44,988 nucleotides of DNA from positions 1 through 44,988 of the IMG/VR virus record IMGVR_UViG_3300035161_000033; one strand, given 5' to 3'. A model generated the notes under the pieces. It saw only the letters and a list, made by a program, of their open reading frames with translations, had not been told where the DNA came from and made no database searches. Origin of the DNA: a virus. A program made the translations under genes and the position numbers. Below, piece after piece: positions 10,881 through 44,988 of this stretch (position 1 is the first letter of the stretch; each line of letters begins with the position of its first letter).

Positions 10881-10882
10881 GG

Positions 10883-13928: not shown

Positions 13929-13941
13929 ACAAGGTGTGAGT

Positions 13942-14277
13942 ATGCCAAAAGGTAAAAGCCAGAAGTCTGGCAATGGCAAGGCTAACCGGCATCAGATCAG
14001 GTTCCCAATAACTCGGGAAACTGCCACATTCGAGAAGGCTGTGGAAGAGGTCCGATGCGTGGTATTGGCTAGGGCAGGGGTGAGCACCAAGCGCATTTCC
14101 GAGATTTTGCGTATTAGCAAAAGCAAGGTCCAGTATCGGATCTGGAAGGGCGAGGCTATTGGTGCCAGGGCTAGATTCCGAAATGGCGAAAGCTGGGAAA
14201 CGGAAGTTGCTGTTCGAGCGATCCAGCGAAAAGTCATTCAGGAGATCTCAGAAACGGTCACACCGAAGTACCTCTAG
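13942..14277 (+). CDS. HTH-type DNA-binding protein (111 aa)
   Basis: The basic start MPKGKSQKSGNGKANRH is followed by a helix-turn-helix-like segment, VSTKRISEILRISKSKVQYRIWKGEAIG (about 48-75). The rest is basic and helical. The ATG at 13942 is preferred to a GTG two codons earlier because AAGG lies 7 bases upstream. It follows the zinc-finger gene by 13 bases within a direct repeat AAGGTGTGA (13920, 13931). It probably regulates phage genes. Its 3' end overlaps the convergent nuclease gene by 20 bases. Confidence 0.65.
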   Translation: MPKGKSQKSGNGKANRHQIRFPITRETATFEKAVEEVRCVVLARAGVSTKRISEILRISKSKVQYRIWKGEAIGARARFRNGESWETEVAVRAIQRKVIQEISETVTPKYL

Positions 14278-14689
14278 GCGGCATTCCTAGTTGTTTTCGG
14301 GCCCAATCGATTGCCTGGGCCAGGTTTGAAGACACCAGGCATGGAACTTTGGATTTTTCCATCCATGCTTGAATGGTCGTTTTCTGTTCATCGGTCAGCT
14401 TGCCGTGGGGGCCTTTGAGTTCGATCGCGCAGCCTCGGCCGTTCCAGAGCAGGACAAAGTCAGGGGTGCCTTTCTTTGTCGTGGACTTCTTGTCGGTGCG
14501 GCTGTGGACGATCGCAATGTCGGCCACGTTGCAATAGGCCTCGAGCTGCCGGTGCATTTCCAGTTCCTCTTTGCGGTCCTGCTTTTCGAGGGCTTCGTCA
14601 ACCGTGGGTGTTTTGAGCTCCTTGCGGACCCGGGGCTCCATGCACCGCCGGATGTTCTCGGGAAGATTCTTCGGATCCAGTTTACTCAT
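14258..14689 (-). CDS. VRR-NUC domain nuclease
   Basis: In this 143-residue protein, GTPDF at 74-78 supplies the catalytic Asp77, and AIELKGP supplies Glu90 and Lys92. LTDEQKTTIQAW includes the conserved Gln102, and a helical N-terminus carries a Glu before the core. This is the stand-alone VRR-NUC arrangement of phage nucleases, a PD-(D/E)XK type related to Holliday-junction and repair nucleases. It probably trims or resolves replication or recombination intermediates. It is the last gene of the minus-strand glycan cluster, 4 bases after the FkbM gene. Confidence 0.85.
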   Translation of the reverse strand: MSKLDPKNLPENIRRCMEPRVRKELKTPTVDEALEKQDRKEELEMHRQLEAYCNVADIAIVHSRTDKKSTTKKGTPDFVLLWNGRGCAIELKGPHGKLTDEQKTTIQAWMEKSKVPCLVSSNLAQAIDWARKQLGMPPRGTSV

Positions 14690-14693
14690 GGCC

Positions 14694-15356
14694 TCAACGA
14701 CAGATCATGTCGCAATGACTGTTATACCCCTCATCGTGATGATGCACCACCTGCTGGCTAAGGTAGCCCAAATTCGCCAGCATTTTGCGGGTTATTTCAG
14801 GGGTCGCGCCAAAACGCTTTAGTCCATTGACGTTGAGTTCGATGTGGATAATCGGATGAAACCGCCTGATGGTTTCAGCGGCCCCCTCGAGCACCTTCAG
14901 CTCAAAGCCTTCCACGTCGATCTTGAGGACGTCGAGCCGTTCCACGTTCAGGTCATCGAGGCGGATGCTGTAACGCTGGCCAGGTAGCAGTGATTGGCCG
15001 CCCATGTTCCCGGTTTTATTGGAGAGGTCGAACCTGGTGCCGTCACCGATTGCGAGATTGTAGCAAAAGGCTCTAGGGCAGTTGTGGAGAAGGCAGACAA
15101 ACATATCCGGCTTAGGCTCGAAGGCGTGGACCTCGCATTGTCGATCGAGAAAAACCGGGGCTGTGTCGCCAATGAATGCGCCAATATCAAATACAACTGA
15201 CCCGGGTTTAAGCTCATTCCAAACTTTGAGTCCGGTGAAAGCCGGATTCCAGGCCAGCTTGCCTGTTTTGCGAATGTGCTTGCAGGCGGATGTGTCTTTC
15301 CTGGGAATCAAAAGGCCGTGGATCTCTTCGAGGTCGAGCAGGGAGTTAAGACTCAT
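14694..15356 (-). CDS. FkbM-family methyltransferase
   Basis: At 220 residues it has the SAM-binding loop VVFDIGAFIGDT and the acidic HAFEPKPDMF. DVLKIDVEGFELKVLEGA is the signature of FkbM O-methyltransferases, and IIHIELN follows it. These enzymes methylate hydroxyls, often on sugars of surface glycans or natural products. The start at 15356 overlaps the glycosyltransferase stop by ATGA. A longer reading begins inside that gene and is rejected. Its place in a run of glycosyltransferases suggests that the acceptor is a sugar. Confidence 0.85.
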   Translation of the reverse strand: MSLNSLLDLEEIHGLLIPRKDTSACKHIRKTGKLAWNPAFTGLKVWNELKPGSVVFDIGAFIGDTAPVFLDRQCEVHAFEPKPDMFVCLLHNCPRAFCYNLAIGDGTRFDLSNKTGNMGGQSLLPGQRYSIRLDDLNVERLDVLKIDVEGFELKVLEGAAETIRRFHPIIHIELNVNGLKRFGATPEITRKMLANLGYLSQQVVHHHDEGYNSHCDMICR

Positions 15357-16018
15357 ATTCCGATGCTGCGGGGATTGTGCCCGAAACTCAACATCCAATC
15401 CCTGGCGACACTGATATTGAGGAGCTGGCTCGGTATCCTCCTGCGATTTTGTGGGTTCTCCCAGACCGATGCATGTCGCTCATGATAGATCAGGTTGTGC
15501 AGGGTGACGTTCTGTTTTGGGTGCGTCATTTCGATGAGGATCCGCAAAACCGAGTCCCAGGCCTCGCGGCCGAGGAGCATGTCTGGAAAGTCTGGGCCGT
15601 TTTCGAGCCACCATCCAACCCTGAAAGCGTAGAAGTCACTGCCGCAATATGGGTAGCCCCTCTTGATCTGGTCATCTGGAATTGGCTCAGTGAATTTGTG
15701 GAAATCCCGGCGAAAGCAATAGGCGGCATCGATGCTCTGAAAAGCCATGACTACCTTGAAGCTGCAGGCCTCCGCAACGCAGATGTCTGAGTTGGTGAAT
15801 ACGATGATGTCTTCAGGCTTTTTGCCGGCGACTCCTTTGGCTATTAGATCCCTGACATAGGGCACCTGGCCCATGTGATCCCTGTAGCATCTGACCTCGT
15901 CATCAGTGATTGGTATTTCTTCCCATGGTTGCTTTGACCAGGTGATTTGAGCCAGACGCATTCTCCTGGCCGTATTAGGATCCTTCGGTTTGTAGGTGGA
16001 ATAAACGTGATAGATCAT
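15353..16018 (-). CDS. Glycosyltransferase-like protein (221 aa)
   Basis: It starts MIYHVYSTYKPKDPNTARRMRLAQ, then IIVFTNSDICVA with an Asp in the position of the GT-A metal site, then YPYCGSDFYAFRVGWW and the later acidic GREAWDS. The pattern suggests a GT-A fold transferase that reads a nucleotide sugar, but the family is uncertain. Overlaps of ATGA at both ends tie it to the fused glycosyltransferase upstream and the FkbM gene downstream. An inactive relative or a non-sugar nucleotidyl transferase cannot be excluded. Confidence 0.6.
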   Translation of the reverse strand: MIYHVYSTYKPKDPNTARRMRLAQITWSKQPWEEIPITDDEVRCYRDHMGQVPYVRDLIAKGVAGKKPEDIIVFTNSDICVAEACSFKVVMAFQSIDAAYCFRRDFHKFTEPIPDDQIKRGYPYCGSDFYAFRVGWWLENGPDFPDMLLGREAWDSVLRILIEMTHPKQNVTLHNLIYHERHASVWENPQNRRRIPSQLLNISVARDWMLSFGHNPRSIGI

Positions 16019-22542: not shown

Positions 22543-23811
22543 ATGCCTGATCCACAACCCAATCCCCCAACTGAACCGCCGGCACCGCCGGCACCGCCAG
22601 CAGAACCGCCAAAACCGTCATTTCGCGGAATTGACGAGGATTTGGCCGATTTTGCGGGGTCGCCGCCGGAACCGCCAAAACCGCCAGAACCGCCAAAATC
22701 ACCGCCAGAGGGGTCAGAACCCCCGCCGGAACCTGGAGCCCCACAGGAGCCTTCAAAACCTTCAGAGAAGCCACCTGAAGGTGATGAGGATTACCTGGGC
22801 ATCCCTAAGCCAAAGCCCAAGGAACCGCCCAAACCACCGGAAGAACCGGAGCCCAGCGGCCCCCTCAAGGCTCCTGAGCTTCGGGCCGAGTATAAGCGGG
22901 TCAAGGAGCGTCTGGCCGAGGCCGAAAAGGAGCTGTCGTCCTACAAATCTGGTGGAAAACCAGTCGATGAGGGAGAGAAGAAAGTCTATGTGGAGCAGAT
23001 AGATGCGCTCAAAAAGCAGCTCGATGAGGCTCACGGTCATTTGAGAACCGTGGCTTATGAGCAAAGCCAGGAGTACAAGGACAAATACGAGAAGCCCTTC
23101 ATCGACGCCTGGCAGGAAGGGGCCGCACAGGTGGCCACCTTCAACGTCACCGACCAGGAGGGGAATGTCCGAAAAGGCACTCCAGAGGACTTCGCCGCCA
23201 TTATGCAAACTGCTGATAATGAGCAGGCTGCAAATCTGGCGCAGGAAATGTTCGGTTCCAATGCCTTCTACGTTCTGGCCCAACGCCGGGACATCATCAA
23301 GCTCCATACAGCGCGATCTCGGGCCTTGGAGGAATTCCGAGCCAACCTGGGTGAGCGGCAAAAAGCCGAGCTGGAAAAGCTCAAGCAGCAGGCCGAGCAT
23401 CAGGAGCAACGGAGGATCCAGGCGAATACCCTCTGGAAGAAGTTCAACTCCGAGACAGCAGAGAAATACCCCGATCTGTTCAAACCGACCGAGGGTGACG
23501 ATGAGGGAAACAATCTTCTGGCTAAGGGCTACCGCGAGGCTGACTTGGCGTTTAGTGGCGCACCGGATCTGCCCGAGGAAAGTCGAATCAGGCTCCATTC
23601 AGCAGTCCGAAATCGAGCGGCCGCTTTTGGTCGCCTGGTTCATCGTCTGAGAACCAAGGACGAAGAAATCGCGTCACTGAAAGCCGAGTTGGATGAGATC
23701 AGGGGCAGTACCCCTGGACCTGGCCAGGAGGGCAGAGATAAAAACGAAAACCGGCGACCGACTGCCGATGAGGAAATCGAAGCGGCCGCCATGAGGACAA
23801 CCCCGAGGTAA
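22543..23811 (+). CDS. Scaffold-like protein: Pro-rich arm plus coiled coil
   Basis: The 422-residue protein has a Pro/Glu/Lys-rich disordered arm to about residue 105. A long helical, coiled-coil-rich region follows to about 390 (LRAEYKRVKERLAEAEKELSS, then ERQKAELEKLKQQAEH). The tail is ADEEIEAAAMRTTPR. Gene order (portal, this gene, capsid) and helical content fit a scaffolding protein that templates the procapsid. Its C-terminal TADEEIEAAAM closely matches SADEEIERAAM in the small protein encoded just after the capsid gene, so this tail is a candidate capsid-binding element. Confidence 0.7.
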   Translation: MPDPQPNPPTEPPAPPAPPAEPPKPSFRGIDEDLADFAGSPPEPPKPPEPPKSPPEGSEPPPEPGAPQEPSKPSEKPPEGDEDYLGIPKPKPKEPPKPPEEPEPSGPLKAPELRAEYKRVKERLAEAEKELSSYKSGGKPVDEGEKKVYVEQIDALKKQLDEAHGHLRTVAYEQSQEYKDKYEKPFIDAWQEGAAQVATFNVTDQEGNVRKGTPEDFAAIMQTADNEQAANLAQEMFGSNAFYVLAQRRDIIKLHTARSRALEEFRANLGERQKAELEKLKQQAEHQEQRRIQANTLWKKFNSETAEKYPDLFKPTEGDDEGNNLLAKGYREADLAFSGAPDLPEESRIRLHSAVRNRAAAFGRLVHRLRTKDEEIASLKAELDEIRGSTPGPGQEGRDKNENRRPTADEEIEAAAMRTTPR

Positions 23812-30644: not shown

Positions 30645-32426
30645 CTACCGATACACCAGCTGGTGACTTTGATGAGTGGTTGCCTCGTCCCGCATCTTGC
30701 GCAGCCACTCATTATTTCTTTCGATCGTTTCTGCGTTCAGTAGTCGACTGATCTGGAAGCCGCGCCGGCGGGCCCCCTCGAAGCAGATCGAGCACCAATC
30801 AGCCTCGTCAGGCGATCGGCCGACTCGCTCCTTCATTTCCTCTTTGGTTTCCACTTCGATCTTGTCGCCCTTCACCTTGCACCATTCCCTCATGCAGAAT
30901 TCCTCCATGACGCTTTCCGGCAGGCCTCGGACCTGGTCAGCCTCCACCGCATACCTCACGGTGAACCACAGCTCGGTGACGAACTTTGAATAATGCTCCT
31001 TGCACGTCTTGAGCCTGCGTTTCTTTTGCTGCTGGTCCCAGATGTAGAGGTCCAGGGAAACCGGCCTGGTGGTCGGGGCCCCACCAAACTCGATCGGATT
31101 ACAGTCTGCCGACCAGATCCTGGCCAGGGCAGTGCCCAGGCTGCCGCGCCCCGTGGAGTCATGGAAGAAGTTCCCAGCCGTGATCCGATTGCGCCGGCAG
31201 TAATCCTTGACCCACCTGGCAATCTGATCTTCTGGATCCCCGCCGGTGGCAAGGATCGGAACGATCTCGGGTTTATTGATGAGGATGCGCAGCTTGCCTT
31301 CGACGTCCTTCCCAAACTCGATATGGCCGCACATGCAACGGTCCCCGCCATAGGCAGCATCGAGGCCGCCGATCTTGGTCGGTGCACCGTCCCAGGCCAG
31401 ATCTCGGTTCAAAGCGTTGAATTTGACGCAGAGATCCCGGGTCAAAACCCGTTTCGCCATGGTCCCAATCTTCATCGCCCCGATGCATTGGGAGTAGTAT
31501 TCGACTGAGTCCTTGCCGAAAAATGACTCGGTATTGGCGATCTTTTCTCGGGAAATCAAGTATGGATAGCGCACGGGGCTGCCTGGCGGATCGTCAAAAT
31601 TCGGAGAGTCGGTGCCGATCAGATTAACGCAGCGGCCGTTCATGAACCTGGTGTCCCAGACAGAGGTCTTTTCAGGCTCCATGTGGGATCCCCACCCATC
31701 CTTCGGCTCGGCCGCACGGCCCAGCGGATCCAAGATATCGCTCGGATTGCCTAGGACCATGGCTTTGAAATCCTCGTTCTTGTCCAGGTTGGCGAAGGCA
31801 TTCAAGAAGCCGGCACCCATGAATTGCGCTTCGTCCGCGACCAGGCGCATTCTGCGCTGTTTGATCCCGAGATATTTCCCAAGGCCAACAAATTTTCCGT
31901 TCTGAACGCATGGTATTCCGATGATCCCTTTGCGCAGATCGCGGATGGACATCTCGTCCACCAGGTCGGTGCTGATTGCGTGTTTGCTCTCGACCAGGTG
32001 GCCAGGAAGGTCAAACTCACTGGTCGCCAAATTGTGCAGGGATTTGATCTCGCCCCATACTCGAAGCTCGAGTCCGCGCAGATCGGTGGAGGAAATCAGA
32101 ATGCAGGTGTGCTCTGGAAAGCAGTAGTAGTCACAGAGTGCCCACCAGGCAGCAAAGTGGGTCTTCCCGGTGGATCCGGCCCCCATGAGCACGGTGACCT
32201 TTGATTTGGTCACTTCATGCAGGCACAACTCGACCCATCTGTGGTTGTCCAGATGCGGCCAAAGGATCTCCCGCATAGCGTTATAGTGGTATTCAAGCCC
32301 CCTCCCGCACTCGCGATTGTCCTTGAACCAGGTGCCTCCTTGTTGGATGCAACCCATCTCGATTCTAAGCTCGGACGTCCCGGCCGGCCAAAAAGCATTA
32401 TACTTGAAGATTTTTTCGGTGGGCAT
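30645..32426 (-). CDS. Terminase large subunit
   Basis: The 593-residue protein has Walker A GAGSTGKTH at 82-90, Walker B RLVADEAQ at 194-201, and a nuclease domain with GGLDAAYGGDRC, including Asp356. A late acidic motif SPDEADW completes the metal site. The order ATPase then nuclease is that of phage DNA-packaging motors. The protein should cut and pump DNA into the procapsid through the portal. It is on the minus strand while head and tail genes around it are on plus, so it must use its own promoter. No small subunit was recognised in the window. Confidence 0.9.
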   Translation of the reverse strand: MPTEKIFKYNAFWPAGTSELRIEMGCIQQGGTWFKDNRECGRGLEYHYNAMREILWPHLDNHRWVELCLHEVTKSKVTVLMGAGSTGKTHFAAWWALCDYYCFPEHTCILISSTDLRGLELRVWGEIKSLHNLATSEFDLPGHLVESKHAISTDLVDEMSIRDLRKGIIGIPCVQNGKFVGLGKYLGIKQRRMRLVADEAQFMGAGFLNAFANLDKNEDFKAMVLGNPSDILDPLGRAAEPKDGWGSHMEPEKTSVWDTRFMNGRCVNLIGTDSPNFDDPPGSPVRYPYLISREKIANTESFFGKDSVEYYSQCIGAMKIGTMAKRVLTRDLCVKFNALNRDLAWDGAPTKIGGLDAAYGGDRCMCGHIEFGKDVEGKLRILINKPEIVPILATGGDPEDQIARWVKDYCRRNRITAGNFFHDSTGRGSLGTALARIWSADCNPIEFGGAPTTRPVSLDLYIWDQQQKKRRLKTCKEHYSKFVTELWFTVRYAVEADQVRGLPESVMEEFCMREWCKVKGDKIEVETKEEMKERVGRSPDEADWCSICFEGARRRGFQISRLLNAETIERNNEWLRKMRDEATTHQSHQLVYR

Positions 32427-32503: not shown

Positions 32504-34762
32504 ATGGCATCGAACGTCAGAATCACAGACGGTTCTTGGAATTGGCTAGGGGGAGTCGATGCAGGCAAGGTTCCCACAATCCGATCAGAGATAATCCCAA
32601 ATGGGCTTCGGAGGGACCAGCTTGCATGGGCAACTAACTGCACGGTGCGTGGTGGCGGAATCCTACCTCGCACTGGGTGGATCCGCTTGGCGAAAGTTCA
32701 TCCTGGCAATGCGCTCTATCAAGGCGGTTTTCTCTACGACAATTTCATCAATAACACGTTCCCTTACTTGGTTCTCTCCATTGGCGGTGATCTCTACCAG
32801 GTTCGCGTTGACTCAGATAATAGCGTTCGGAATCTCTCGGATGTATTCGGTCTGTCGGATCCGGCGAACGTGGCACAGGCCTGGTTTGTCCAGGGAGAAG
32901 AATTCCTGATCAAGCAGGCTGGTGATGGAACCACCCTCCCGCTCTTTTGGGATGGGAATACCCTGCGCAGATCCACTGGCCAGGGAGGTGTGGTGGGGGT
33001 TACGGCTGCGAATTTCAACGTGCCGGCAGTCGGAGGCTGGGTGGATGTGACACTTTATGGGCCGTATGCTGGTGCTCAGAATCAGATCGTCATGATCCTG
33101 AACGAATCCTACATCCATGTGGATTCGACCCAATCGATCACCCTCCAAAACAATACGGCAGGCCTGCCGGTCGGCTACGTGGTCCCGGCTGGCACAATCA
33201 TTCGGGATGCCGGCGGCGCGGTCCTTTGCACGACCCTGGCCAACTTCGTCATTCCTGCCTTTGGCAATCCGGTTGCGTTGCCGGTCTGGGTTAATCCAGC
33301 AGTGGGCGCACCGCAAGCAGTGACCATCGATGGCAATGCCTGGCAGATCACGGCCGTGGCCCCGGTGGCCCCGCCAGCTGCCAATCATGTCCTCCTGGTC
33401 AACATCTCAGCCACGCCTGCAGACGTTGTCCCAGCTGACAGCGAGCTTTCCACGGTGTCAGAGCTGCCGGCCGCCACCTGCATGGACTACTACATGGGCC
33501 GCATCTGGTATGCCCAGGACCGGCAATACACGGCTGGAGACATCGTCCTGGGCCCAGCAGGCACCACTGCTTACCGGAAGCGGGATTCGATCCTGAAGAT
33601 CACCGAGAACCCTCTGGCACTGGCCGGGGACGGGTTCGTCGTTCCGACCGAGGACGGCATCATCCGCGCTCTTAAGCACACGGCAAATCTGGACACGGCT
33701 TTAGGTGAGGGTCAGCTGTTCGCTTTTACCAGGAAGACCATCTACTCCCTTTCAGTGCCGGTCACCCGGGCAAACTGGATCACCACGACTGAGCCCCTCC
33801 AGAAAGTTGCCCAGCTTCGGAACGGCACCTTTGGCGATCGCAACGTCGTTAACATTAACGGCGACCTCTTCTATTTGTCCTGGGATGGTTACCGGAGCTT
33901 GTTCGTTGCTGTCCGCGACTTCAGCCAATGGGGCAATACTCCGATCAGTCGTAACATCAATCGCCTCCTCAACTTCAACGATCGAGGCCTGCTGAGCTTG
34001 AGCAGTGGGGTTTACTTCGATAACCGGATGCTGCAGACAACGCTGCCACAGCAGACCGAGGTTGGGATTGCCTACGATGGAATGGCCGTTTTGGACTTCG
34101 ACCTGGTCAGCTCGCTCGAGGACACGGCAACCAATGTGCAGCGGCAGCCGCCGGCGTGGGAGGGCTGGTGGCAGGGGGTCAAGTTGCTTCAGCTCTTCGA
34201 GGGGGATTATGGCGGCCTGCAAAGAGCTTTTGCGGTGGTCCTGGCCCAGGATGGGGGGATCGAGGTTTGGGAGCTGACCACAAATCAGCGCAATGACCAG
34301 GACGATAATCGCGTCGAATGGTTCATCGAAACGCCGGCGTGGACATGGGACACGCCATTTGAATTGAAACGGCTCGATGGTGGAGAGATATGGTTCGATC
34401 GCGTTTACGGGACAGTTTACCTCGACGTCTTTTATCGCCCCGATTCCGAGGCCTGCTGGCAGCCATGGTATCGGACGGAATTTTGCTCCGCGCGTACCAG
34501 CTGCGAAGACGTCGTAAATCCCATCTGCTATCCAGAGCAACCCTACGGTGAGAACTACAAGTTCCCGGTGACTTTGCCGACGCCGCCCTATGCTACTTGC
34601 CAGTACCTAAACGCTCGCCCGATGAACTACGGGTACCAGTTCCAAATGAAGATCGTTGTTAAGGGCTGGTGCCGGATCCGAGGGATCATGGTTCATGCTA
34701 TCCCAGTTCAAAAGCCACCGTTCCAAGGCATGGCCTGCGCGACTCCATCCTCCACGCTATGA
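32504..34762 (+). CDS. Podovirus-type tail hub or nozzle protein
   Basis: The 752-residue protein starts MASNVRITDGSWNWLGGVDA, then TVRGGGILPRTGWIRL and ALYQGGFLYDN. This opening resembles short-tailed phage hub/nozzle and P22 gp10-like stabilisation proteins. Beta-rich repeats follow, with an insertion near 200-310 and a C-terminal cysteine-rich part (FCSARTSCEDVVNPICYPEQ). It would close and stabilise the tail after DNA packaging. The match is in pattern and context. The next start overlaps its stop by ATGA. Confidence 0.65.
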   Translation: MASNVRITDGSWNWLGGVDAGKVPTIRSEIIPNGLRRDQLAWATNCTVRGGGILPRTGWIRLAKVHPGNALYQGGFLYDNFINNTFPYLVLSIGGDLYQVRVDSDNSVRNLSDVFGLSDPANVAQAWFVQGEEFLIKQAGDGTTLPLFWDGNTLRRSTGQGGVVGVTAANFNVPAVGGWVDVTLYGPYAGAQNQIVMILNESYIHVDSTQSITLQNNTAGLPVGYVVPAGTIIRDAGGAVLCTTLANFVIPAFGNPVALPVWVNPAVGAPQAVTIDGNAWQITAVAPVAPPAANHVLLVNISATPADVVPADSELSTVSELPAATCMDYYMGRIWYAQDRQYTAGDIVLGPAGTTAYRKRDSILKITENPLALAGDGFVVPTEDGIIRALKHTANLDTALGEGQLFAFTRKTIYSLSVPVTRANWITTTEPLQKVAQLRNGTFGDRNVVNINGDLFYLSWDGYRSLFVAVRDFSQWGNTPISRNINRLLNFNDRGLLSLSSGVYFDNRMLQTTLPQQTEVGIAYDGMAVLDFDLVSSLEDTATNVQRQPPAWEGWWQGVKLLQLFEGDYGGLQRAFAVVLAQDGGIEVWELTTNQRNDQDDNRVEWFIETPAWTWDTPFELKRLDGGEIWFDRVYGTVYLDVFYRPDSEACWQPWYRTEFCSARTSCEDVVNPICYPEQPYGENYKFPVTLPTPPYATCQYLNARPMNYGYQFQMKIVVKGWCRIRGIMVHAIPVQKPPFQGMACATPSSTL

Positions 34763-36420
34763 ATATCCCGTGCCCATACAACGCACCATGCATCGATGAT
34801 GCGAATTCATTGGGGAACTATTCCTCCGAGGATCCAGATCGTTTTCTGTTCAGGAGTTCCTACTTTCCGAATCAGATCTTCGATGATGATTTTGATATCT
34901 GGCTGGCTTGTGATGGTTACTGCGTTTCCACTATTTCGCAGGAGGATGCGGACCTCTGCGCAATGAACAATGCGCTCATCTGCGAGCGATCCAGGCAATA
35001 CATCAACGAACAGTACACCTGCTATCGAACCTGCCCAGATGGCACTCAATACTCTTTCACCATTCCTGCCGGGACGTTCTGGGCTACCACGCAGGCTCAA
35101 GCTGATGCTCTCGCCCAGGAATGGTGCAATCGATATCTCACACTCACCTGTGAATCGGTCGATCCCAACAATCCTAATCCGCCACCGACTCCCGTGTTCC
35201 GGCTGCCCAATCCTCGGGGCAAGCGCGAGTGCAATGATGCCCTCACGATCGAGGTAATTTGCGTGGACGGGAAAAAGGGCGCATCGATCCCGAAGTGCGA
35301 TGTCATGGGTGCGGACAAGATCGATGCGAATATCCGCGCCAGGACCAAGGCCGAGGACTGGTTGTCCTATGGCATTGGGTGTCTCACTCCGCTTTTAAAG
35401 TCAGCCTGCGTGGATGAGGAAATCAACCAGTGGGTGGTCCCAGATCGTGTCGCGGGATTTGTGCGACCAGTCTCTTGGGAAGTGTTCGGGATACCACCTC
35501 CTGGGATTAACTTCGCACCGCAAACCACAGCGATGCGGGTTTACGGCACGTTCACCAAAGCTGGCACCTACGGGTTCCGGCTCACGATGACTGACAAGAA
35601 TGGAACCTTCACTTATAGGGTTTATTTCATTTCGGTCATGGAGATCACAACTCCAGGTGCGCTGCCACCAGGTGAAGTAGGCTCTCCCTATAGCACGTCG
35701 ATCGAGGTGCTCGGCGGTTGGGATCCCAAATCCTGGGGCATCAGCAATGTTTTAGGTTCACTCCCGCCTGGTCTGGCGATAGATGGAAGCACTGGTGTAA
35801 TTTCAGGCACTCCGACTGCGACCGGCACTTATACCTTCAAAGTCGTAGTAGTCGACAATGAGGGTGGATCCTGCAACAAGGATTTCACCCTGATCATCAC
35901 AGATAACACCTTTGCTGCTTGGGCATGGAGCAACAATACTTCCTGCACCGGATGCGCGACCTGCGAGATTAGTCCGAGCGGACTTTTGCAGCCATCCAGC
36001 TCTGCATTTGGTAGTGTTTCGCTCCCGGTATCTGCGACAGTTTGTGGAAGCGGAGTTGCCCGTCTTCAACCAGGCGACTTCTCGTTTACTAACGCCACAG
36101 GTTCTCCGATCAATTGCAAGCTGACCGTGGTTGTGGCGAAAACCAATTGGCCAGCAGCTCCCAATGGGATTCAGTGCGGCAGTGAAACAATCTACTTTGC
36201 CAGAACCTTCCCGAGTTCAATCGTGATAGCTAACACCGGGAGCGGGGATGTACCTCCTGGCACCTACGAATATTCATTCACACTGCCTGTTGGGAACAGT
36301 GTTTGGACGGCACTGTTTCTGATTCAGGCAGCCTATTCTGGTTACCCTCCGAGCCCACCTGATTTTATACCCTACATTGGAGGCTCAAGCGCATTTGCTG
36401 TGAGCTTCGGACTAGCATGA
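34759..36420 (+). CDS. Cysteine-rich tail-block protein with Ig-like domain (553 aa)
   Basis: The start at 34759 overlaps the tail hub stop by ATGA and is preferred to a longer one inside that gene. I count 22 cysteines, most in the first 240 residues and again near 430. Residues about 300-390 contain ITTPGALPPGEVGSPYSTSI, then SLPPGLAIDGSTGVISGTPT, a He_PIG-type Ig/cadherin-like fold common in phage and surface adhesins. The C-terminal part is beta-rich. It is likely a tail appendage. The cysteines suggest disulfide or metal stabilisation outside the cell. Confidence 0.6.
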   Translation: MNIPCPYNAPCIDDANSLGNYSSEDPDRFLFRSSYFPNQIFDDDFDIWLACDGYCVSTISQEDADLCAMNNALICERSRQYINEQYTCYRTCPDGTQYSFTIPAGTFWATTQAQADALAQEWCNRYLTLTCESVDPNNPNPPPTPVFRLPNPRGKRECNDALTIEVICVDGKKGASIPKCDVMGADKIDANIRARTKAEDWLSYGIGCLTPLLKSACVDEEINQWVVPDRVAGFVRPVSWEVFGIPPPGINFAPQTTAMRVYGTFTKAGTYGFRLTMTDKNGTFTYRVYFISVMEITTPGALPPGEVGSPYSTSIEVLGGWDPKSWGISNVLGSLPPGLAIDGSTGVISGTPTATGTYTFKVVVVDNEGGSCNKDFTLIITDNTFAAWAWSNNTSCTGCATCEISPSGLLQPSSSAFGSVSLPVSATVCGSGVARLQPGDFSFTNATGSPINCKLTVVVAKTNWPAAPNGIQCGSETIYFARTFPSSIVIANTGSGDVPPGTYEYSFTLPVGNSVWTALFLIQAAYSGYPPSPPDFIPYIGGSSAFAVSFGLA

Positions 36421-37442
36421 GAAAGACGCTACACGATATCAAAACGAGCCGGATCCCAGAGCTCCTGGGTATCTGCGCCGATGACACCTATCGCCTGGCC
36501 AGCATCGTCAATGATGCCCAGCAACGTCTGGTCTATGCTGGGAAGGAGGCCGGCTGGTGGGAGGGGTGGGTAAAGGTCCGGTTCTCAGTAACCAGTGCCG
36601 CCCCATACATCACGCTGCCTCGGGACTTTGCCAGAATCATCAATATGGCTTTGTGCTCGACGCCGCTTTACATCCACAACGAATTCTACGAGGTGCTCCC
36701 GGGTGGACCTGGCCCAATGCGGGATCAGGATCTTTGCTGCTGCGATGACTGGTGCGGATCGGTCGCCGGCTATGAGCGCGGAGTTCACCCCACCTCGAGG
36801 GATTTGGATTCGACCAACCAAAAGCTCAGGCTTTACGTGACCGATGAAAGAGATCTCGGCATGAACGTGATCTTTTCAGGGGAAGATCAGAACGGTCATG
36901 TGATCTATGGCATGGATGGGCTGCATCAAATCCAGGGATTCAAAATCACGACACTGAGCCCTTATGCAGATTCGGATTTCATCGTGACCAAGCTGACCCG
37001 GGTTCTCAAGCCGATGAGCTATGGGGACATCCTCCTCTACCAGGTCGATAACACGACCGGGGCCCAGGTTCTGCTTTCTCGCTACCTGGCAAGCGAAACC
37101 AACCCAGCGTATCGACGCTATTACATCAATCCGATTTGCAGCACCTGCGGCAGCTACACGGTCAATGCGCTAGCCAAACTGGAGTTCATCCCGGCTGCCA
37201 GGGATACGGATCCATTGATCATCGGGAACATCCCAGCACTGACCGAGATGGTGCAAGCCCTGCGCGGATACAGCCAGGAAGTGGAGGCTGCGCACAAGAT
37301 GGCGATCGCGCATGAAGCTCGAGCAATCAAGCTCATGAAGCGGGAAATGGACCACTACCTCGGAAACCAGCAACCAGCTGTCACGGTTGACCGCTTGCAG
37401 CAGGCTTCGTTCAAACGCATCGGACTCTCAACAATGATCTAA
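36417..37442 (+). CDS. Head-tail adaptor or tail-tube-like protein (341 aa)
   Basis: It starts MRKTLHDIKTSRIPELLGIC and has INDAQQRLVYAGKEAGWWEG-like helices (SIVNDAQQRLVYAG), then ITLPRDFARIINMALC, similar in style to phage adaptor and T7 gp11-type proteins. A CCCDDWC cluster lies near residue 105. The C-terminus is helical (VEAAHKMAIAHEARAIKLMK). It probably joins head or hub to tail. It overlaps the previous gene by 4 bases (ATGA). The family is uncertain. Confidence 0.55.
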   Translation: MRKTLHDIKTSRIPELLGICADDTYRLASIVNDAQQRLVYAGKEAGWWEGWVKVRFSVTSAAPYITLPRDFARIINMALCSTPLYIHNEFYEVLPGGPGPMRDQDLCCCDDWCGSVAGYERGVHPTSRDLDSTNQKLRLYVTDERDLGMNVIFSGEDQNGHVIYGMDGLHQIQGFKITTLSPYADSDFIVTKLTRVLKPMSYGDILLYQVDNTTGAQVLLSRYLASETNPAYRRYYINPICSTCGSYTVNALAKLEFIPAARDTDPLIIGNIPALTEMVQALRGYSQEVEAAHKMAIAHEARAIKLMKREMDHYLGNQQPAVTVDRLQQASFKRIGLSTMI

Positions 37443-37445: not shown

Positions 37446-38390
37446 ATGGCACTCTACGATCCAGCCCTTTTTGTCAATGGCAGATACCAAGCGGCACCAA
37501 CCACGCCTGCCGCTGGCCGTGCCCCGTACCCTGGCAACCCCGAGACTTTTTCCTACGACCCAAATGCTGTCGGAGGTGGAGTTGCCCAGTATTACAACCT
37601 TGCGCTGGCCGGTCAGCCGACGTTTGAGCCGATCATGCGAAACATCAGCGGGATTCCCAATCCCATGGTGGCGGCAGAGGTGGCACAGCAGGCTGCGGAG
37701 CGCGGCGTTGGAATCGGCAGTTACGGTGGGCCCAACGACGCGACTGCTTATTTGCGAGCTCTTGGCCTGACCGGCCAGGCCTTGCAGGACATCGGCATCG
37801 AACAGTACCGCCAGGCCTACGCGACTGTTCCTCAATTGTCTCCCACCAGCTTGTTCATTTCGCCGACCGATTTGTCGCAGATGAACCTGCAGTGGAACCT
37901 GAACGAGGCCGATATCGTAGCAGCCATGGCTCGGCAACGTGCGGCCGATGAAGCAGCCATGGCTCGAGCTCGCCTGGCCGCCAGCACTCAGACCACTCTG
38001 CAAAGGGAAAACATTTCTGCCCAGAATTACTGGGCCAGTGTGAATCGATCTGACACCCAGGCTTATCTCAATCGAATTCGAGGTGACGTGGGCGGAATTT
38101 CTGGAATGTACAACCAGATGTATGGCGGGGGAGTTTCTGCGCCAGGTGTAGCCGAGAATCCACTAATCGCCCGTGGCACTGCGACTGAGCCGATTTACTG
38201 GCCTGATTTCGGCGAGGGAGTTTACACCGGCGGCGGCGGCGTGGGAGGTGCTGTGGTGCCCGAATCCGCACCCGCTACCTACGGATCCGCCGGCAGTGCG
38301 GTTGGCTATGAATATCCACCAACCGGTGGCATTTACATGGGGCCATCTCTCGGATCACCCGAGGCTGAGTACAATGCTTTGCTCGAATAA
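37446..38390 (+). CDS. Gly/Ala-rich virion-type protein (314 aa)
   Basis: It has many Gly, Ala, Pro and Tyr residues, with a central helical part (ADIVAAMARQRAADEAAMARAR) and a Gly-rich end (GGGGVGGAVVPE). Such proteins lie before the internal ejection proteins of short-tailed phages and may be ejected with the DNA. It starts 3 bases after the adaptor stop. No domain recognised. Confidence 0.55.
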   Translation: MALYDPALFVNGRYQAAPTTPAAGRAPYPGNPETFSYDPNAVGGGVAQYYNLALAGQPTFEPIMRNISGIPNPMVAAEVAQQAAERGVGIGSYGGPNDATAYLRALGLTGQALQDIGIEQYRQAYATVPQLSPTSLFISPTDLSQMNLQWNLNEADIVAAMARQRAADEAAMARARLAASTQTTLQRENISAQNYWASVNRSDTQAYLNRIRGDVGGISGMYNQMYGGGVSAPGVAENPLIARGTATEPIYWPDFGEGVYTGGGGVGGAVVPESAPATYGSAGSAVGYEYPPTGGIYMGPSLGSPEAEYNALLE

Positions 38391-38418
38391 GAATCAATCA
38401 GTGAACACAGGATCTTAA

Positions 38419-39798
38419 ATGCCAATCGCATACAACGCACCCTACGAAGACCCAAATTGGATGCGAGCCTATTTGGGCGGAATCGATGCCGCGAAGCAAT
38501 TTCAGGCGAATCAGGCGGCCCGGGCAATCCAGTGGCAAGGCACCCAGGAATACAATTCTTTGGTGCAAGGTGGCATGGATCCTCGGGAGGCTCTTCAACG
38601 TGTCGCGCCCCGGCTTTTCTTCAGTGACCCGCGAGCTCTGTCTGGCGCACTGCCTTCTTTGCTCACCCAGCCAGGTGGACTTTATACCGACCCGAGTGGC
38701 CGGCAATTTACCGTGGACAGATGGGGTGTGCCTCGAGCTCTCCCCCAAGAGCAACTTGGCTGGACTACCTATCAGGATCCCGATACTGGCCAGATCTTCA
38801 AGGTTCCAATCCAGCGTAATCAACCAACTCCGACTCAGACTGGGCCGGTTACGCCTCCGGTTGTGACGATGCCTGATGGCACTCAATATTTCGTTTCGCC
38901 TGGCAAACCTCCGCAACGGGTGATGCCGAATCCAAACGCAACTGTCCAGGTGCCCACGGGGCCGCTCGGGGTGAAAGTGCCGACGCCGACCGGTAAGTAC
39001 ATTCTCGATGTGGAAAAAGCCAAAGTCCAAGACAAGCTCTCCAGGTGGGAGCAGCTCGCCGGCAGAGTGGCTCGAGGTGAAAAGGAAAGCTGGCTCGCCA
39101 CCGATTACTTCACCAATCAGTTGAAGGCCATTGAGGCTGATTTGGCTGCCGAAGGTTGGTCCACAAACGGCACCCCGCTCCCGGGAACCGACCTGCACGA
39201 AAAGGTCTACGGCCAGCGTGGAGTCGCGCCGACCCCGGGCCAGAGTCCTTATCAATTAACGCCGCCGGCCGCTCCTGTTACTCCTCCAGCTGCTACCCCT
39301 GCGCCGGCAGGTCCACCAGCTCCAGTGCCAGTGCCTCAACCTGGAGGGGGTGTCTTTCCTTCTGCTCCCGGCAGGAGCTGGGTTCCTACTCCAACGCCAG
39401 GAATAATTGCGACGCAGCCCAGGACGGTTGTCACCACTCCTGCTCCAACGCCGGCTGCCCCGGCCCCGCCGACTCCGACGCCACCGCCTGGTGGCGGAAT
39501 CAATATCACACTGCCCAGGTATACGCCGACGCCGGCTACCGTCAGGCCGCCCACTCGAAACATCCAGCGACGGAGGCCGGATGGAACCTGGGAGCGGGTG
39601 CCAGGATCTGTCTCGAGGCAGGCGATGCAGCAGCACATCGAGCGCAACAAGAGAATGATCATCGAGCAGATTGGTCCACCTCCAGCTATCCAGCTGCCAG
39701 CCAACCAAGGCCTGTTCATCACTGCTGACGAGTTCAACAATCCGCGCTACGGGATCTTTAACATCCAAACCGGAGAGTTTGTAGGTTATGCCGACTAA
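38419..39798 (+). CDS. Pro-rich virion-type protein (459 aa)
   Basis: The ordered N-terminus (MPIAYNAPYEDPNWMRAYLG and KQFQANQAARAIQWQG) is followed by Pro/Thr/Ala-rich regions (about 135-180 and 275-375). Between them is a helical part (LDVEKAKVQDKLSRWEQLAG). The end is ordered again (ITADEFNNPRYGIFNIQTGEF). It overlaps the giant gene by 11 bases, so the two are probably translated together. It is likely a structural or ejected protein, with no known motif. Confidence 0.55.
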   Translation: MPIAYNAPYEDPNWMRAYLGGIDAAKQFQANQAARAIQWQGTQEYNSLVQGGMDPREALQRVAPRLFFSDPRALSGALPSLLTQPGGLYTDPSGRQFTVDRWGVPRALPQEQLGWTTYQDPDTGQIFKVPIQRNQPTPTQTGPVTPPVVTMPDGTQYFVSPGKPPQRVMPNPNATVQVPTGPLGVKVPTPTGKYILDVEKAKVQDKLSRWEQLAGRVARGEKESWLATDYFTNQLKAIEADLAAEGWSTNGTPLPGTDLHEKVYGQRGVAPTPGQSPYQLTPPAAPVTPPAATPAPAGPPAPVPVPQPGGGVFPSAPGRSWVPTPTPGIIATQPRTVVTTPAPTPAAPAPPTPTPPPGGGINITLPRYTPTPATVRPPTRNIQRRRPDGTWERVPGSVSRQAMQQHIERNKRMIIEQIGPPPAIQLPANQGLFITADEFNNPRYGIFNIQTGEFVGYAD

Positions 39799-42700
39799 AC
39801 CCGCGATTGACCCACTGGCAATTCGGTTTGATCAGCCGAATGTCATTCCAGGTCCACCAGGTGAAGAGTATACGCCTGGAGTGATTGATCAGTACTGGCC
39901 GACCAGTCCCGAGGAGCTGGCCCCTCCAACGCAACCAGTCCAACCTGCGCAACCTGGCCGCTATACACCATCCATCCAGAACGCGATCCCCATTCGGATG
40001 GGAACAGCCCCCGCGCAGCCAGTGCCATTGTTCCAGGTTCAACCAGGTGGACCACCGGCTTTGCCCGAAGAAGAGGCAGCGTGGCCGGATCCAGCTGAGC
40101 AATTGCCGATTGAGTCGTTGCCCAAAGGTTCTTTAGGGGCCGAGCAAGTATGGGATGAACAGCAGCAACGCTGGACCTGGCGCGAGCTGACTGAAGAGGA
40201 GCGCGAGGCAGGTGCAAGATACATTGGGCCGGCCAGGCCATGGAGCTTGTGGAGGTCTGCGAAAGGTCTTTTCCGAAATCTGTTCATTCCGATCCTGGGC
40301 AGCACCCAGGCTCAAATGGATGAGGACGCTCGCCGGTTCTTACAAGTCCATCCAGAAGACACCGACAAGTTTTTCGACAAGAAAGGCAATCTTACCACCA
40401 AGGGTGCCAACGCTTGGCGCAGTGCAATGCGTGGCATCGATCAGCTGCAGATGACAGCTTACGGTGTGGGAATGCTCTCGGCTGACCTGGTTGGTTTGAA
40501 AGTTCTGGCTGACCGGATGTATGAGGGGGTCAAGCAGCAGATGGAGGAGATCGAGGAAAATGCGCCAGAGGTGCCATCTCTTAAATCCATCAGCGAAGGT
40601 TACGAGTCAGGATTCAGGGATGTTGGCCCAAGGACACGCCGGCTGGCTGTTTATGGATCCCAGGCCTTTTTCGAGAATGTGCCTACGATGCTCATGACCA
40701 TGGGCGTTGGAGGCCTCGCCGGCCTGGCAGTCAAAAAGATCCTAAAGCGGCAGCTTTCCAAGAGAATTGTCGAGGAGGCTCTTTCGCGGGTGGCAATCAA
40801 GAAGGCCCAAGAGGCTGCAGCAAAAAAAGTCATGCTCGCCCAGACCGGTGGCGTCGTAGCGGCAGCAACTTTTCAAGAAGCCGGATCGATTTACGCCGAC
40901 ATGGCTAATGACGGGATCCGAGGCCCAGTCCCAGCCTTGGTTGCTGCAGCTGCTGCATTGCCTGCCGGATTTCTTGAAGGCATCACTCCATTACTTTTGA
41001 TCAGGAGGGTTGGGAACGAGCCCATCAAAGGTCCGATCGAGGCCTTGGTGCGCAGCACACTCGGCGAAGCCATCATGGAAAAGGGCATCGTCAAAATGGG
41101 GGTTGGTGGCTTTGAAGCTGCGATGTCCGAGGGTGTGACTGAGTACCTCCAGACAGCAATCGAGATCGCCGCCAGGCTTTCCCAGGATCCTGATGTCCAA
41201 GGTCGCTTTTGGGAGGCCTTCCTACAGGGTTACGACGTGCGGGAGGAGCTCAAGGAAGGCTTTGCCAAGGGATTCTTTGCTGGTGGTGGCATGGGGATGG
41301 GAGCAGGGGTCATTCAATCCTACGTGGATAAAGTTTCTGGTGAGGCCGAAAAACGTGCGCTCAGGCTCGGGGCTCAACATGCGATTGCCAATGCGAACAA
41401 GCCTCGAATGCAGCCGATCACTCTGCGCAAGAGTGACGGTGGCACCATGACCATTTTTGTTCCGGTCAATCCCAGTCCTACTGCTCAACCTCAATTGATG
41501 CCGGCGGTCCCAGGTGTGAGGGGTGCGGATGTGGTCAATCAGGCAATCGGAATGGGGCTGCCGGCCACGGCAGAAGCCCTTAACCGACCACGCTTTTTCA
41601 CCCGAGGTCAACCAATCCCAGGAATCGATATCCAAGCGGGTGCACAGATTGCACCGGAGTTCACGCCACGGCCGATGACGGCAACGGAGTGGGCGGCACG
41701 TCAGGCTGCCCCCGAAGTCTCCCCGGCGGCCCAGGCAGAGCCGGTTCCACCGGTCGCCCAGCCAACCCCGGCTGAAGAGGCAGAAGCAAGAGCTGCCCGA
41801 GAGGCCGCCGGGATCCCCGCTGAGCCCACTGAGCAAGCCCTCGGAGTGCAAAGCTACATCCAGAGGGATTATCCAGATCTGCAGAATTGGAGGGTGGTTA
41901 ACAGTCCAGCAGACTTTCCTGCCGAGGTTCTTCAAGATCTGAGGGAGCAGGGGATGAAACCTGAAAACATGGATGCCGTTTATTACAACGGCCAGGTCAT
42001 CTTCAATGCCGCCAATTTCCCGCTCGGGGATCCAGCCCTGGTCAGGCAGAAAGTGTTTCATGAGTCGGCCACTCATCTTGGGCTGAGAAGGACTCTTGGG
42101 GAGGCGCGGTTCAAGCGGCTATCAAAGCAGATCTATCGCAGCTTGAACGACAGTGAGCGAGCCCAAGTGGCGATCCAGAACAACCTGGACATCACCGACC
42201 CCGAAGTCGTGGGAGAGGAATGGCTGGCCTATGAGGCCGAGCGGATCCTTGGATTGGATGTGCCAGATTCGCTTTGGGGTAGAATCGCGGACAGCGTCCG
42301 ATCGGCTCTTCGCGCCCTTCGGATTCCGGTCAGGTTCAACGATCGGGAGCTGGCCAGGATCCTGAGTCGCGGATTTGAAGCAGCTCGCGGCCGGCCTGGT
42401 CGCAGGCTATATGCTACAACCCCTGCAACCCGCGCCTCTGCCGTTTCCGAATACGGCCCGGGCAGTCCGCTCGCACCGGTCAGCGAGATCCGCTACAGCG
42501 TAGCAGATGTTAGGAGAGCCACGCTCGAGGGTGTGAGGGAATACACTCCCGAGGTCAAAGGTTCGGAACTGGAGAATGCGTTCACGGCGGTCAAGAACAT
42601 CCTCTACATCGAGGCCGAAACTCTTTCGGATCTGATCCCGCCGGAAACCTCCTGGTGGCAGCCTACGGAGGGCATGTCTTTGATTGAATACGTGCGCCGA

Positions 42701-44988
42701 TTCTACTCTCCAGAGGGCATCGATCTCCTTCGCGAAACCTTTTCGCGTGACACGCCCCCCGGGTTCATCAGGACCAAGAAGGGCAAGCAAACCTGGAAGA
42801 TGATCAAAGCCGAATTGAACGAGGTGGACAAGGGCATGGCCAGTCCCAACTCGGGATTCGGTGCAACCTTCCTTGCCATGAACCGCAAGACCGGTGGTGT
42901 GTCCTGGGACTTCGGTCTGGGCACTTGTATGCCAACCGAGAATTGCATCGTCTGTTACGCAAAAGGCCTAAGTGATCCGACCGCTGGATCGAAAGCCAGG
43001 GTGCGTCATTCGATCGTGACAGCACTGCAGCCCGAGGCGGTCGGCGAGCTGGTGGCTCGATACATTCGGAACCGCCCCAAGGCCGACCAGGCCTTTCTCC
43101 GAGTCAACGGTGCTGGTGATACGACTTTTCCCTGGCAAGCCATCGCAGTGAACACGGCGATCCGAAACATGGATCGGCCAGTGCACATCTTCAGCCGGTC
43201 GCATGTGTCCCGGGCCCCCGGCACAGTCGGTTTGGATTCGATCATCAATGGGCAGTATGACCCCAACGATATCGAGAACGGCGTGGTGGTCTACAAGATG
43301 GGCTCGATCGACCGGCAGCTGGTCACCGAATACATCGACAAATACGGAATCGATTTCCTGAAGAACAACCTTCGCGACCGGGGGATCATTAACAGCTACC
43401 TGGTCAAGGATGTGGATGACATCCCAATTCTGCAGGATCTCAAGCGGCAGGGCGTTTTCATGGTCCTGCACATCAATAAGAAGAACAGCCTGGTCAAAGC
43501 CCTGCACGACGCCGGCATCCTGGCGAGCGCAGAGAATCCAGAGATGGTCACGCCTTCTTGCTACTGCGCATTGGAATCTGGTCCATTCTACAATGGCTGC
43601 GCGACTTGCCTGCTCGGCGGCGGTCCATGCTTTGCGATGGGAACCGCCATCGGCATGACTCCCCAAGGCCAGTTTTTCTACTTGCCGGATCTCTACGACG
43701 GGGCGATCGAACCGCCATCGGAGCAGCTGGTGGAAATGAGCCGAATTGGTGTCCGAGAGGATCGTGAGCAGGCTCTCCTCGATGCGGCCGCCAGGTCGTA
43801 TGCCATGGCCGCATCCAACCTCCAGGGATCCGTTGCCCAATGGAAGCGTGGCGACCTGCAGAGGGTCAAGGTGGAGAACCCGCGATCGCGGGAGCTGCTC
43901 TATTACGCTTCGACGCAGGAAGAGATCGACCAGGTGACGCAGCTGATCGCCGATTGGAGAGCGTTTGCCAAGACGCTCAAAAACTACACCAAGCAGTGGA
44001 AATCTCTGAGTGGTGACGAGCGGTACAAGGTGCGCCGGCAGATGAAGAAGGCTCTCACCATGGACCAGGCGGTCACCGAAGGCATCGCCGAGGCCAAACG
44101 CGCAGTGGAAGCGGCCAAACCGAAATATTCCATGCGGCCCAACGAGCCTGACCCGGGCACCATGGCCTATCCCGAGGAGGGACCGCCGGCAAACACTCCA
44201 GGCAGCGTCAAGGTGGCCCCGCCCAATAATCCCCTGATCACGGTGCCGGAACATGACAAAGAGTACCTCCTGCGCTACTCGATCAGCTGGATGGGCAAGG
44301 ATCCTTTGGACGTCCTCGAGCCGAAGCCCTTCTCCAATGAGGGCATGGAGCAAGCCATGCGCGAGCTCAAGCTCAATACCACGATCGAGGAGGCGATCGG
44401 CAAGCCTGATGCCGAGCTCATGGCCAATGTCCAGAGGCGCATGGATCGAGATCCCACCTGGGCCAGGAGCATCATCGAGCGCGAACGCCGGCGGCCTGGT
44501 TTTTTGGATGATGAGGAAACCATGGCGTTGGACCTGGTCGCACTCCAGGTTCGGCACAGAGTGCACTATCACTCCAAGAGGGCTGATGACCTGATCGAAG
44601 CTGGCAGGCCCGATGAGGCTTGGGGCGATCGCGCCACGGCCGACTCCTATGCGGCCGCCCTCGAGGAGCTCAAGAACATCAGCCGGCAGAGCGGCACCCT
44701 GGCCGGTCGCGCCTTCCGAGCTCGCCAACTGGCGGCCAGGTGGGACTTCACGGTCGATACCCTTTTCTACGAGAAACGCCGCGCCTCCCAATGGTCATCC
44801 CTAAGCAGAGAAGAACGCGCAAAGCTCTGGCAAGAGATGGAGCGCAAGGCTCGCAAGTACGACGAGCTGACCGCGCAGATCCAAGCTCAAGAAGCTGAGC
44901 AACGGCAGGCCGAGGTGGACCAGAAAGTGGACCAGGCTCGCCGGGATGCCGAAGATATCAATCCCGAGGTCATCGCCTATGCCAAGGA
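39788..44988 (+). CDS. Giant virion/polyvalent protein, partial: metallopeptidase motif and GP88-like domain
   Basis: From the ATG at 39788 the frame stays open to the window edge, at least 1,733 codons. Residues 1-90 are Pro-rich. Membrane-active-looking Gly-rich helices (TMLMTMGVGGLAGLAV near 300, LPAGFLEGITPLLLI near 390) fit an ejected protein. At 758-763 is HESATH, an HExxxH zinc-peptidase motif as seen in phage polyvalent proteins, followed by GEEWLAYEAERI, a possible third ligand. Residues about 1030-1290 resemble phage GP88: Cys1047-x5-Cys1053-x2-Cys1056-Tyr, then LRVNGAGDTT, then VHIFSRSH, then a second cysteine cluster near 1258-1281. The tail is charged and helical. It probably enters the host with DNA. 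The C-terminus is not seen. Confidence 0.8.
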   Translation, partial: MPTKPAIDPLAIRFDQPNVIPGPPGEEYTPGVIDQYWPTSPEELAPPTQPVQPAQPGRYTPSIQNAIPIRMGTAPAQPVPLFQVQPGGPPALPEEEAAWPDPAEQLPIESLPKGSLGAEQVWDEQQQRWTWRELTEEEREAGARYIGPARPWSLWRSAKGLFRNLFIPILGSTQAQMDEDARRFLQVHPEDTDKFFDKKGNLTTKGANAWRSAMRGIDQLQMTAYGVGMLSADLVGLKVLADRMYEGVKQQMEEIEENAPEVPSLKSISEGYESGFRDVGPRTRRLAVYGSQAFFENVPTMLMTMGVGGLAGLAVKKILKRQLSKRIVEEALSRVAIKKAQEAAAKKVMLAQTGGVVAAATFQEAGSIYADMANDGIRGPVPALVAAAAALPAGFLEGITPLLLIRRVGNEPIKGPIEALVRSTLGEAIMEKGIVKMGVGGFEAAMSEGVTEYLQTAIEIAARLSQDPDVQGRFWEAFLQGYDVREELKEGFAKGFFAGGGMGMGAGVIQSYVDKVSGEAEKRALRLGAQHAIANANKPRMQPITLRKSDGGTMTIFVPVNPSPTAQPQLMPAVPGVRGADVVNQAIGMGLPATAEALNRPRFFTRGQPIPGIDIQAGAQIAPEFTPRPMTATEWAARQAAPEVSPAAQAEPVPPVAQPTPAEEAEARAAREAAGIPAEPTEQALGVQSYIQRDYPDLQNWRVVNSPADFPAEVLQDLREQGMKPENMDAVYYNGQVIFNAANFPLGDPALVRQKVFHESATHLGLRRTLGEARFKRLSKQIYRSLNDSERAQVAIQNNLDITDPEVVGEEWLAYEAERILGLDVPDSLWGRIADSVRSALRALRIPVRFNDRELARILSRGFEAARGRPGRRLYATTPATRASAVSEYGPGSPLAPVSEIRYSVADVRRATLEGVREYTPEVKGSELENAFTAVKNILYIEAETLSDLIPPETSWWQPTEGMSLIEYVRRFYSPEGIDLLRETFSRDTPPGFIRTKKGKQTWKMIKAELNEVDKGMASPNSGFGATFLAMNRKTGGVSWDFGLGTCMPTENCIVCYAKGLSDPTAGSKARVRHSIVTALQPEAVGELVARYIRNRPKADQAFLRVNGAGDTTFPWQAIAVNTAIRNMDRPVHIFSRSHVSRAPGTVGLDSIINGQYDPNDIENGVVVYKMGSIDRQLVTEYIDKYGIDFLKNNLRDRGIINSYLVKDVDDIPILQDLKRQGVFMVLHINKKNSLVKALHDAGILASAENPEMVTPSCYCALESGPFYNGCATCLLGGGPCFAMGTAIGMTPQGQFFYLPDLYDGAIEPPSEQLVEMSRIGVREDREQALLDAAARSYAMAASNLQGSVAQWKRGDLQRVKVENPRSRELLYYASTQEEIDQVTQLIADWRAFAKTLKNYTKQWKSLSGDERYKVRRQMKKALTMDQAVTEGIAEAKRAVEAAKPKYSMRPNEPDPGTMAYPEEGPPANTPGSVKVAPPNNPLITVPEHDKEYLLRYSISWMGKDPLDVLEPKPFSNEGMEQAMRELKLNTTIEEAIGKPDAELMANVQRRMDRDPTWARSIIERERRRPGFLDDEETMALDLVALQVRHRVHYHSKRADDLIEAGRPDEAWGDRATADSYAAALEELKNISRQSGTLAGRAFRARQLAARWDFTVDTLFYEKRRASQWSSLSREERAKLWQEMERKARKYDELTAQIQAQEAEQRQAEVDQKVDQARRDAEDINPEVIAYAK

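Follow-up and report, generated by a model that had tools for sequence, protein, structure and literature searches.

The analysed stretch (the window) is an entire IMG/VR virus record of 44,988 bases, and it ends inside a giant open reading frame. The locus raises the question of what kind of protein this frame encodes, whether that protein enters the host together with the phage DNA, and what a cysteine-bearing domain resembling the phage protein GP88 might do within it. The best explanation, to which we assign a probability of about one half, is a packaged and ejected polyvalent protein that carries a GP88/DUF5131-like domain in an exchangeable slot and acts by the mechanism proposed below.

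The giant protein and its exchangeable slot

The giant ORF runs on the plus strand from an ATG at 39788 to 44986 and stays open for 1,733 codons, as the first-pass annotation had stated in counting at least that many. It has no stop codon because the contig ends there; complete homologues measure 2,729 aa (L002) and 2,769 aa (L183). Among the relatives found, contig IMGVR_UViG_3300034351_000046 (L002) is the nearest; its genes are arranged as in the window, and its positions 7271-15457 encode the complete homologue. Since most of the frame aligns with L002 and the differences pile up at the third codon position (0.28, 0.21 and 0.54 at positions 1, 2 and 3 in the domain region), the giant ORF is, judged by this comparison, a genuine gene. 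An antisense ORF of 607 aa (42968-44791) was set aside, as a single frame is not kept there in L002.

The window and L002 proteins are 44% identical overall. By region, identity amounts to 30% in the N-terminal part, 45% in the peptidase-type region, 53% in the linker, 65% in the GP88-like domain and 37-43% in the later parts; the GP88-like domain is the best conserved region of the giant protein. It spans 42740..43777 on the plus strand (residues about 985-1330). The giant protein of L034, which is complete as L183, is homologous to the window protein up to residue ~919 and again from residue ~1328, and between these points L034/L183 carry an unrelated-looking domain. L002 and L183 share 48% identity across ~1,290 C-terminal residues. 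As the content of this segment differs in L034/L183 while the flanks remain, the GP88-like domain occupies an exchangeable slot, and exchange between window/L002 and L034/L183 is of the kind that characterises polyvalent proteins.

Upstream of the slot lies a putative zincin-type (MPTase-like) region (41828..42427, plus strand; residues 681-880). The HExxxH motif that had been reported at residues 758-763 is present there as HESATH (42059-42076, plus strand). Both this motif and a downstream helix, GEEWLAYEAE (42212-42241, plus strand), are conserved in L002 and L034: the three relatives read HESATH, HEVGIH and HEAFVH, and the helix is unchanged in all of them. No profile matched the peptidase-type region. 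Nevertheless, judging by its motifs, the combination of HEXXXH with a downstream Glu-bearing helix fits the zincin-type MPTase domain of the HEXXXH sub-type that has been described for polyvalent proteins (Iyer et al. 2017, PMC5512222).

The giant protein most likely belongs to a known type, the polyvalent ejected proteins. It shares with those covered by the survey a giant multidomain chain, a zincin-type domain of the HEXXXH sub-type, exchangeable domains and predicted injection (PMC5512222). It differs in that the main text of the survey features no cysteine domain of the GP88/DUF5131 type; this main text mentions neither radical SAM, GP88 and DUF5131 nor iron-sulfur or cysteine.

Scans with the peptidase region and with the slot domain of L034 yielded no contigs beyond the relatives already found. 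A two-row domain profile had no match among 398 genomes, in a run that included no positive control.

Cysteine distribution and a probable ejection cassette

All eight cysteines of the window giant protein lie inside the GP88-like domain. The same is true of the 2,729-aa protein of L002, where the eight cysteines are identically spaced, and the only three cysteines of the 2,769-aa L183 protein (978, 1025 and 1028) fall inside its own slot domain. A more distant giant protein (L035) has no cysteine in 1,614 aa. The genome is not cysteine-poor, given a mean of 1.57% over 18 other large ORFs of the window; at that rate ~22 cysteines would be expected outside the domain, against none observed (P about 4e-10).

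On the plus strand, the first cluster, GTCMPTENCIVCYAK (42920..42964), contains C1047, C1053 and C1056 in the arrangement C-x5-C-x2-C-Y-A. It is followed by the element GAGDTTFPW (43109..43135; GAGD at residues 1108-1111), the equivalent of the RxxxxGD of GP88, and by the second cluster (43556..43630) with C1258, C1260, C1271, C1274 and C1281. The first-pass annotation had named the three cysteines, the GAGD element and a second cluster, and each is found at these residues. It had further proposed that the clusters could hold a metal or iron-sulfur site. The sequence strongly suggests that they do bind metal: because all the cysteines of an otherwise cysteine-free chain sit in them, the two clusters are probably metal ligands.

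The genes that precede the giant gene bear on its delivery. The plus strand of the window encodes a conserved tail-type protein (32504..34762; 752 aa, 79% identical in L002), which is nozzle-like by position only, and a tail adaptor-like protein (36417..37442) with a weak, below-cut-off match to SU10_adaptor (E 9e-4). Next come candidates for a first (37446..38390; 314 aa) and a second ejection protein (38419..39798; 459 aa). These last two genes, immediately upstream of the giant gene, encode no cysteine in the window, L002 or L034; the tail-type genes that precede them, three in number, encode 8-23 cysteines each. Thus, if the slot domain is left aside, three consecutive cysteine-free genes end the tail cassette in all three genomes. 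One of the proteins of this stretch, of 583 aa and with 23 cysteines (34669-36420), matches He_PIG putative Ig (E 7e-16) and DUF5977; its gene starts about 90 bases before the gene of the 752-aa tail-type protein ends.

Proteins gp14-16 of phage T7 are known ejection proteins. Among them, gp15 and gp16 contain no cysteine and gp14 contains one, and cysteine is also absent from gp50 (3,500 aa), gp51 and gp52 of phage N4; the comparison covers these two model phages. The N4 proteins are likewise ejection proteins, and gp50 carries an HExxH domain (PMC12633501). Absence of cysteine alone is no proof of ejection, because cysteine is also missing from ORF 22543-23811 of the window and from N4's major coat protein. 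What we take as telling is the arrangement: a cysteine-free run that mirrors the ejection proteins of N4 and T7, preceded by cysteine-rich tail genes. In the window, as with the N4 virion RNA polymerase gp50 and its companions gp51 and gp52, and with T7 gp15/gp16, a giant protein ends such a run. There are two differences from these systems: no sequence homology to their proteins was detected, and the slot domain of the window breaks the no-cysteine rule.

By analogy, the giant protein is probably injected with the DNA by a short-tailed phage. The earlier suggestion of an ejected protein is strongly supported in this form, through gene order and the cysteine-free signature common to N4 and T7. 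Alternatively, the giant protein might not be ejected, if it were a structural protein of the tail that is produced late or did not belong to the virion. Profiles of known internal virion proteins do not match it, as this would predict. Yet the giant gene is placed after the tail genes, three consecutive genes are cysteine-free as in N4 and T7, and the C-terminal part matches (28%, E 4e-10) a cysteine-free 1,582-aa protein that is also sited after tail genes in an environmental phage, which together make a protein that is not ejected very unlikely.

Consecutive cysteine-free genes before the giant gene occur in the window (37446-39798), L002, L034, N4 (gp51, gp52) and T7 (gp15). It is possible that such runs are a general signature of ejection proteins.

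A probable remote kinship with GP88 and DUF5131

GP88 (PF17338) was founded on gp88 of mycobacteriophage D29, which scores 188 bits against the Pfam profile and is matched by 387 phage records; when further family members were used to scan viral contigs, at least 314 relatives came up. In the 80 IMG/VR loci that were kept, the GP88 ORF always measures 214-269 aa, which agrees with the earlier description of GP88 as a separate small protein.

DUF5131 proteins of Actinomycetota score up to 30.6 bits with the Pfam GP88 profile, which exceeds its curated cut-off of 24.4 bits; the two families are therefore homologous. Bacterial DUF5131 (Gp37/Gp68) proteins above or near the cut-off were collected as loci L173-L182. 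A text search of the open-licence literature returned no paper on PF17338 and none that combines Gp37, Gp68 and radical SAM.

For the window itself the evidence is more remote. The whole protein gave no match to Pfam GP88, and trimmed pieces of the domain reached 14.1-15.0 bits (E 0.043-0.022); since its best score lies below the cut-off, we refer to the domain as GP88-like and not as a member of the family. The L002 homologue scored 20.6 bits as a whole protein (E 4.5e-4); shortening it step by step gave 23.2, 24.3 and 25.6 bits, the best of these (E 1.3e-5) passing the cut-off only after trimming and in one of four queries.

The shared residues are more specific. In an alignment of 16 sequences (window, L002 and 14 GP88 proteins), C1047, C1053 and C1056 are invariant together with the Y and A that follow, R and GD within RxxxxGD, an R and an N further on, and three cysteines of the second cluster. 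The window domain thus carries the motif set of GP88, namely C..C..CYA, RxxxxGD and a second cysteine cluster, in the order found in that family. It differs from GP88 in being a domain within a 2,700-aa chain instead of a free-standing protein of about 215-270 aa, in its longer insertions, in having five cluster-2 cysteines and not four, and in its sub-threshold score.

Profile comparison of the domain with two GP88 sets gave E 0.0026 and 0.0044, as single comparisons, and aligned the same residues. GP88 profiles of our own making, less sensitive than that of Pfam, gave a weak signal against shuffles for L002 and did not separate the window from shuffles. Window residues 961-1410 folded with L002 and 14 GP88 rows yielded a model with a pLDDT of 62 and a pTM of 0.55. 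Its top match in a viral library was the GP88-domain protein of Halogranum tailed virus 1 (probability 0.90, E 0.13), a result that comes from a pLDDT-62 model and is partly circular because GP88 rows were used in building it; the third match was a Radical_SAM phage protein. The PDB fold search with this model returned nothing useful. A tblastn search of cultured phages with the window domain gave no GP88 match, and a Bacteroides phage match with an E of 5 was judged to be chance.

These results also have to be read against the possibility that the domain is unrelated to GP88, a separate cysteine-cluster enzyme whose CYA and GD motifs arose by convergence. The sub-cut-off window score, the failure of our own profiles to separate the window from shuffles and the restriction of most of the similarity to about 80 residues would all fit such an origin. 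We nevertheless regard it as unlikely: trimmed L002 exceeds the Pfam cut-off, the comparisons with the two GP88 sets align identical residues, and the invariant positions include residues of cluster 2. Hence the similarity to GP88 noted in the first-pass annotation holds as a remote one, beyond chance, that rests on the L002 homologue, the shared motifs and a low-confidence model, while the score of the window itself stays below the Pfam threshold.

DUF5131 (PF07505; phage Gp37/Gp68) shares with the window domain the three-cysteine CYA motif, an SD/GD after the second strand and a TK/TR motif. It differs in that its direct comparison with the window domain was not significant and that the aligned set shows no second cysteine cluster.

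The alternative slot domain (L034:13585-14900; L183 residues about 900-1340) contains exactly three cysteines, spaced C-x46-C-x2-C and including CVLCYVE; together with an SxSDF element and a YTK motif, these reproduce the motif order of GP88/DUF5131. It has no profile match, and a link to GP88 or DUF5131 was rejected as its score did not exceed shuffles. Its motifs suggest that it is possibly a diverged member of the GP88/DUF5131 fold.

In one metagenome bin (L119:3256-6720) an ORF of 1,155 aa contains GP88 in frame behind an Hpt/chemotaxis-type chain. We rejected it as an ejection protein, since it joins GP88 to a chemotaxis-type Hpt chain; it is possibly an assembly chimera.

A radical SAM hypothesis and a proposed mechanism

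An AlphaFold2 model built from 34 GP88 rows (pLDDT 90.7) begins with a strand, the Cys loop, helices, a strand ending near GD, a helix, a strand ending near TR and a helix, and continues with two strands, a helix, a strand and a helix. The cysteines come after strand 1 and GD after strand 2, an order that fits a half barrel of the radical-SAM type and suggests such a fold. The window has the three-cysteine cluster, C-x5-C-x2-C, that in radical SAM enzymes follows the first strand, its predicted strand position being taken from the GP88 model. Foldseek matches of the GP88 model in the PDB were weak and mostly barrels (best E 0.022), and neither this model nor that of the window had a PDB match with E <= 0.001. 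The top 50 matches include the radical SAM enzymes 7bi7 (NifB, judged from the entry title), MqnE, TM_1862, which we take to be RimO, and AprD4.

The Pfam Radical_SAM profile (PF04055) did not match the window domain. Between the DUF5131 profile and one bacterial SPL-like radical SAM protein, an alignment of 129 columns brought four motifs into register. A first comparison with radical SAM proteins seemed significant, with controls that lacked the cysteine motif; most of this signal was gone once the shuffles kept the motif. Against such motif-preserving shuffles, 31 radical SAM proteins did not score clearly above chance (p 0.13, 0.03, 0.57 and 0.07 for four queries), and for this reason we keep radical SAM identity as a hypothesis and not as a result. 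It is a good hypothesis, at even odds or somewhat less.

A different reading dispenses with radical chemistry and makes the domain a structural zinc-binding module: zinc in the clusters would stabilise a fold for binding nucleic acid or protein, of host or phage. Clusters with CxxC pairs are compatible with zinc too, and there was no significant radical SAM fold or profile match. On the other hand, the window domain, GP88 and DUF5131 all conserve three cysteines in cluster 1 instead of four, like SAM-binding [4Fe-4S] sites, and the GP88 model has the barrel order with its GD and TR/TK motifs at strand ends. We therefore consider a zinc module rather unlikely, though a stronger competitor than an origin apart from GP88.

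In a DNA-pattern search for CYAKG, the only meaningful matches besides the L002 contig were SPL-like radical SAM genes. Three of them, L026:2-763, L030:1-798 and L031, are phage-borne genes with PF04055 and the CYAKG motif on viral contigs. The proteins of L026 and L030 follow the motif order of the window domain, with CxxCYAKGL first, then G-x-x-D, then TKS/SRS; as they were found by a window-derived pattern, the first motif is shared by construction, and the rest does not exceed shuffles.

We propose that the giant protein is the third and largest member of a podovirus-type ejection cassette, and that it would be packaged in the virion and delivered with the DNA. Its polyvalent layout would comprise a cysteine-free chain, a zincin-type HExxxH region that possibly processes the chain, a swappable effector slot, filled in the window phage by a remote GP88/DUF5131 relative, and a long C-terminal half. 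Within a radical-SAM-like barrel, a [4Fe-4S] cluster would be bound by the three cysteines of cluster 1 where the first strand ends, and cluster 2 may be an auxiliary cluster or a structural metal site. As a chain largely without cysteines, the protein would pass through the tail and bring the slot domain to the cytoplasm, where the iron-sulfur cluster may be loaded or kept; loading after entry would be one answer to how it survives packaging and passage. There the domain might act early in infection by modifying either a small molecule or a nucleic acid. That the target is nucleic acid is a hypothesis for which the resemblance to SPL-like proteins is the sole argument.

Taken to its full extent, the proposal is that the phage packages and ejects a radical-SAM enzyme inside a giant that is otherwise cysteine-free, that the slot swaps cysteine-bearing enzyme domains among related phages, and that GP88 and DUF5131 are free-standing members of the same radical-SAM branch; we put this forward tentatively, with somewhat less confidence than the best explanation given at the outset. 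If it is true, an oxygen-sensitive enzyme class joins the cargo injected by phages, and GP88 and DUF5131, families of unknown function, gain a testable chemistry. Moreover, cysteine-free gene runs whose exceptions are limited to effector domains would become a signature by which ejected proteins and their effectors can be found in environmental phages.

Elsewhere in the window, two minus-strand genes stand out. A large terminase-like gene (30645-32426; phrog_2, E 5e-8) is located inside the plus-strand late region, and a DHH phosphoesterase gene (7087-8163; phrog_4771, E 1e-67) is found among the early replication genes.
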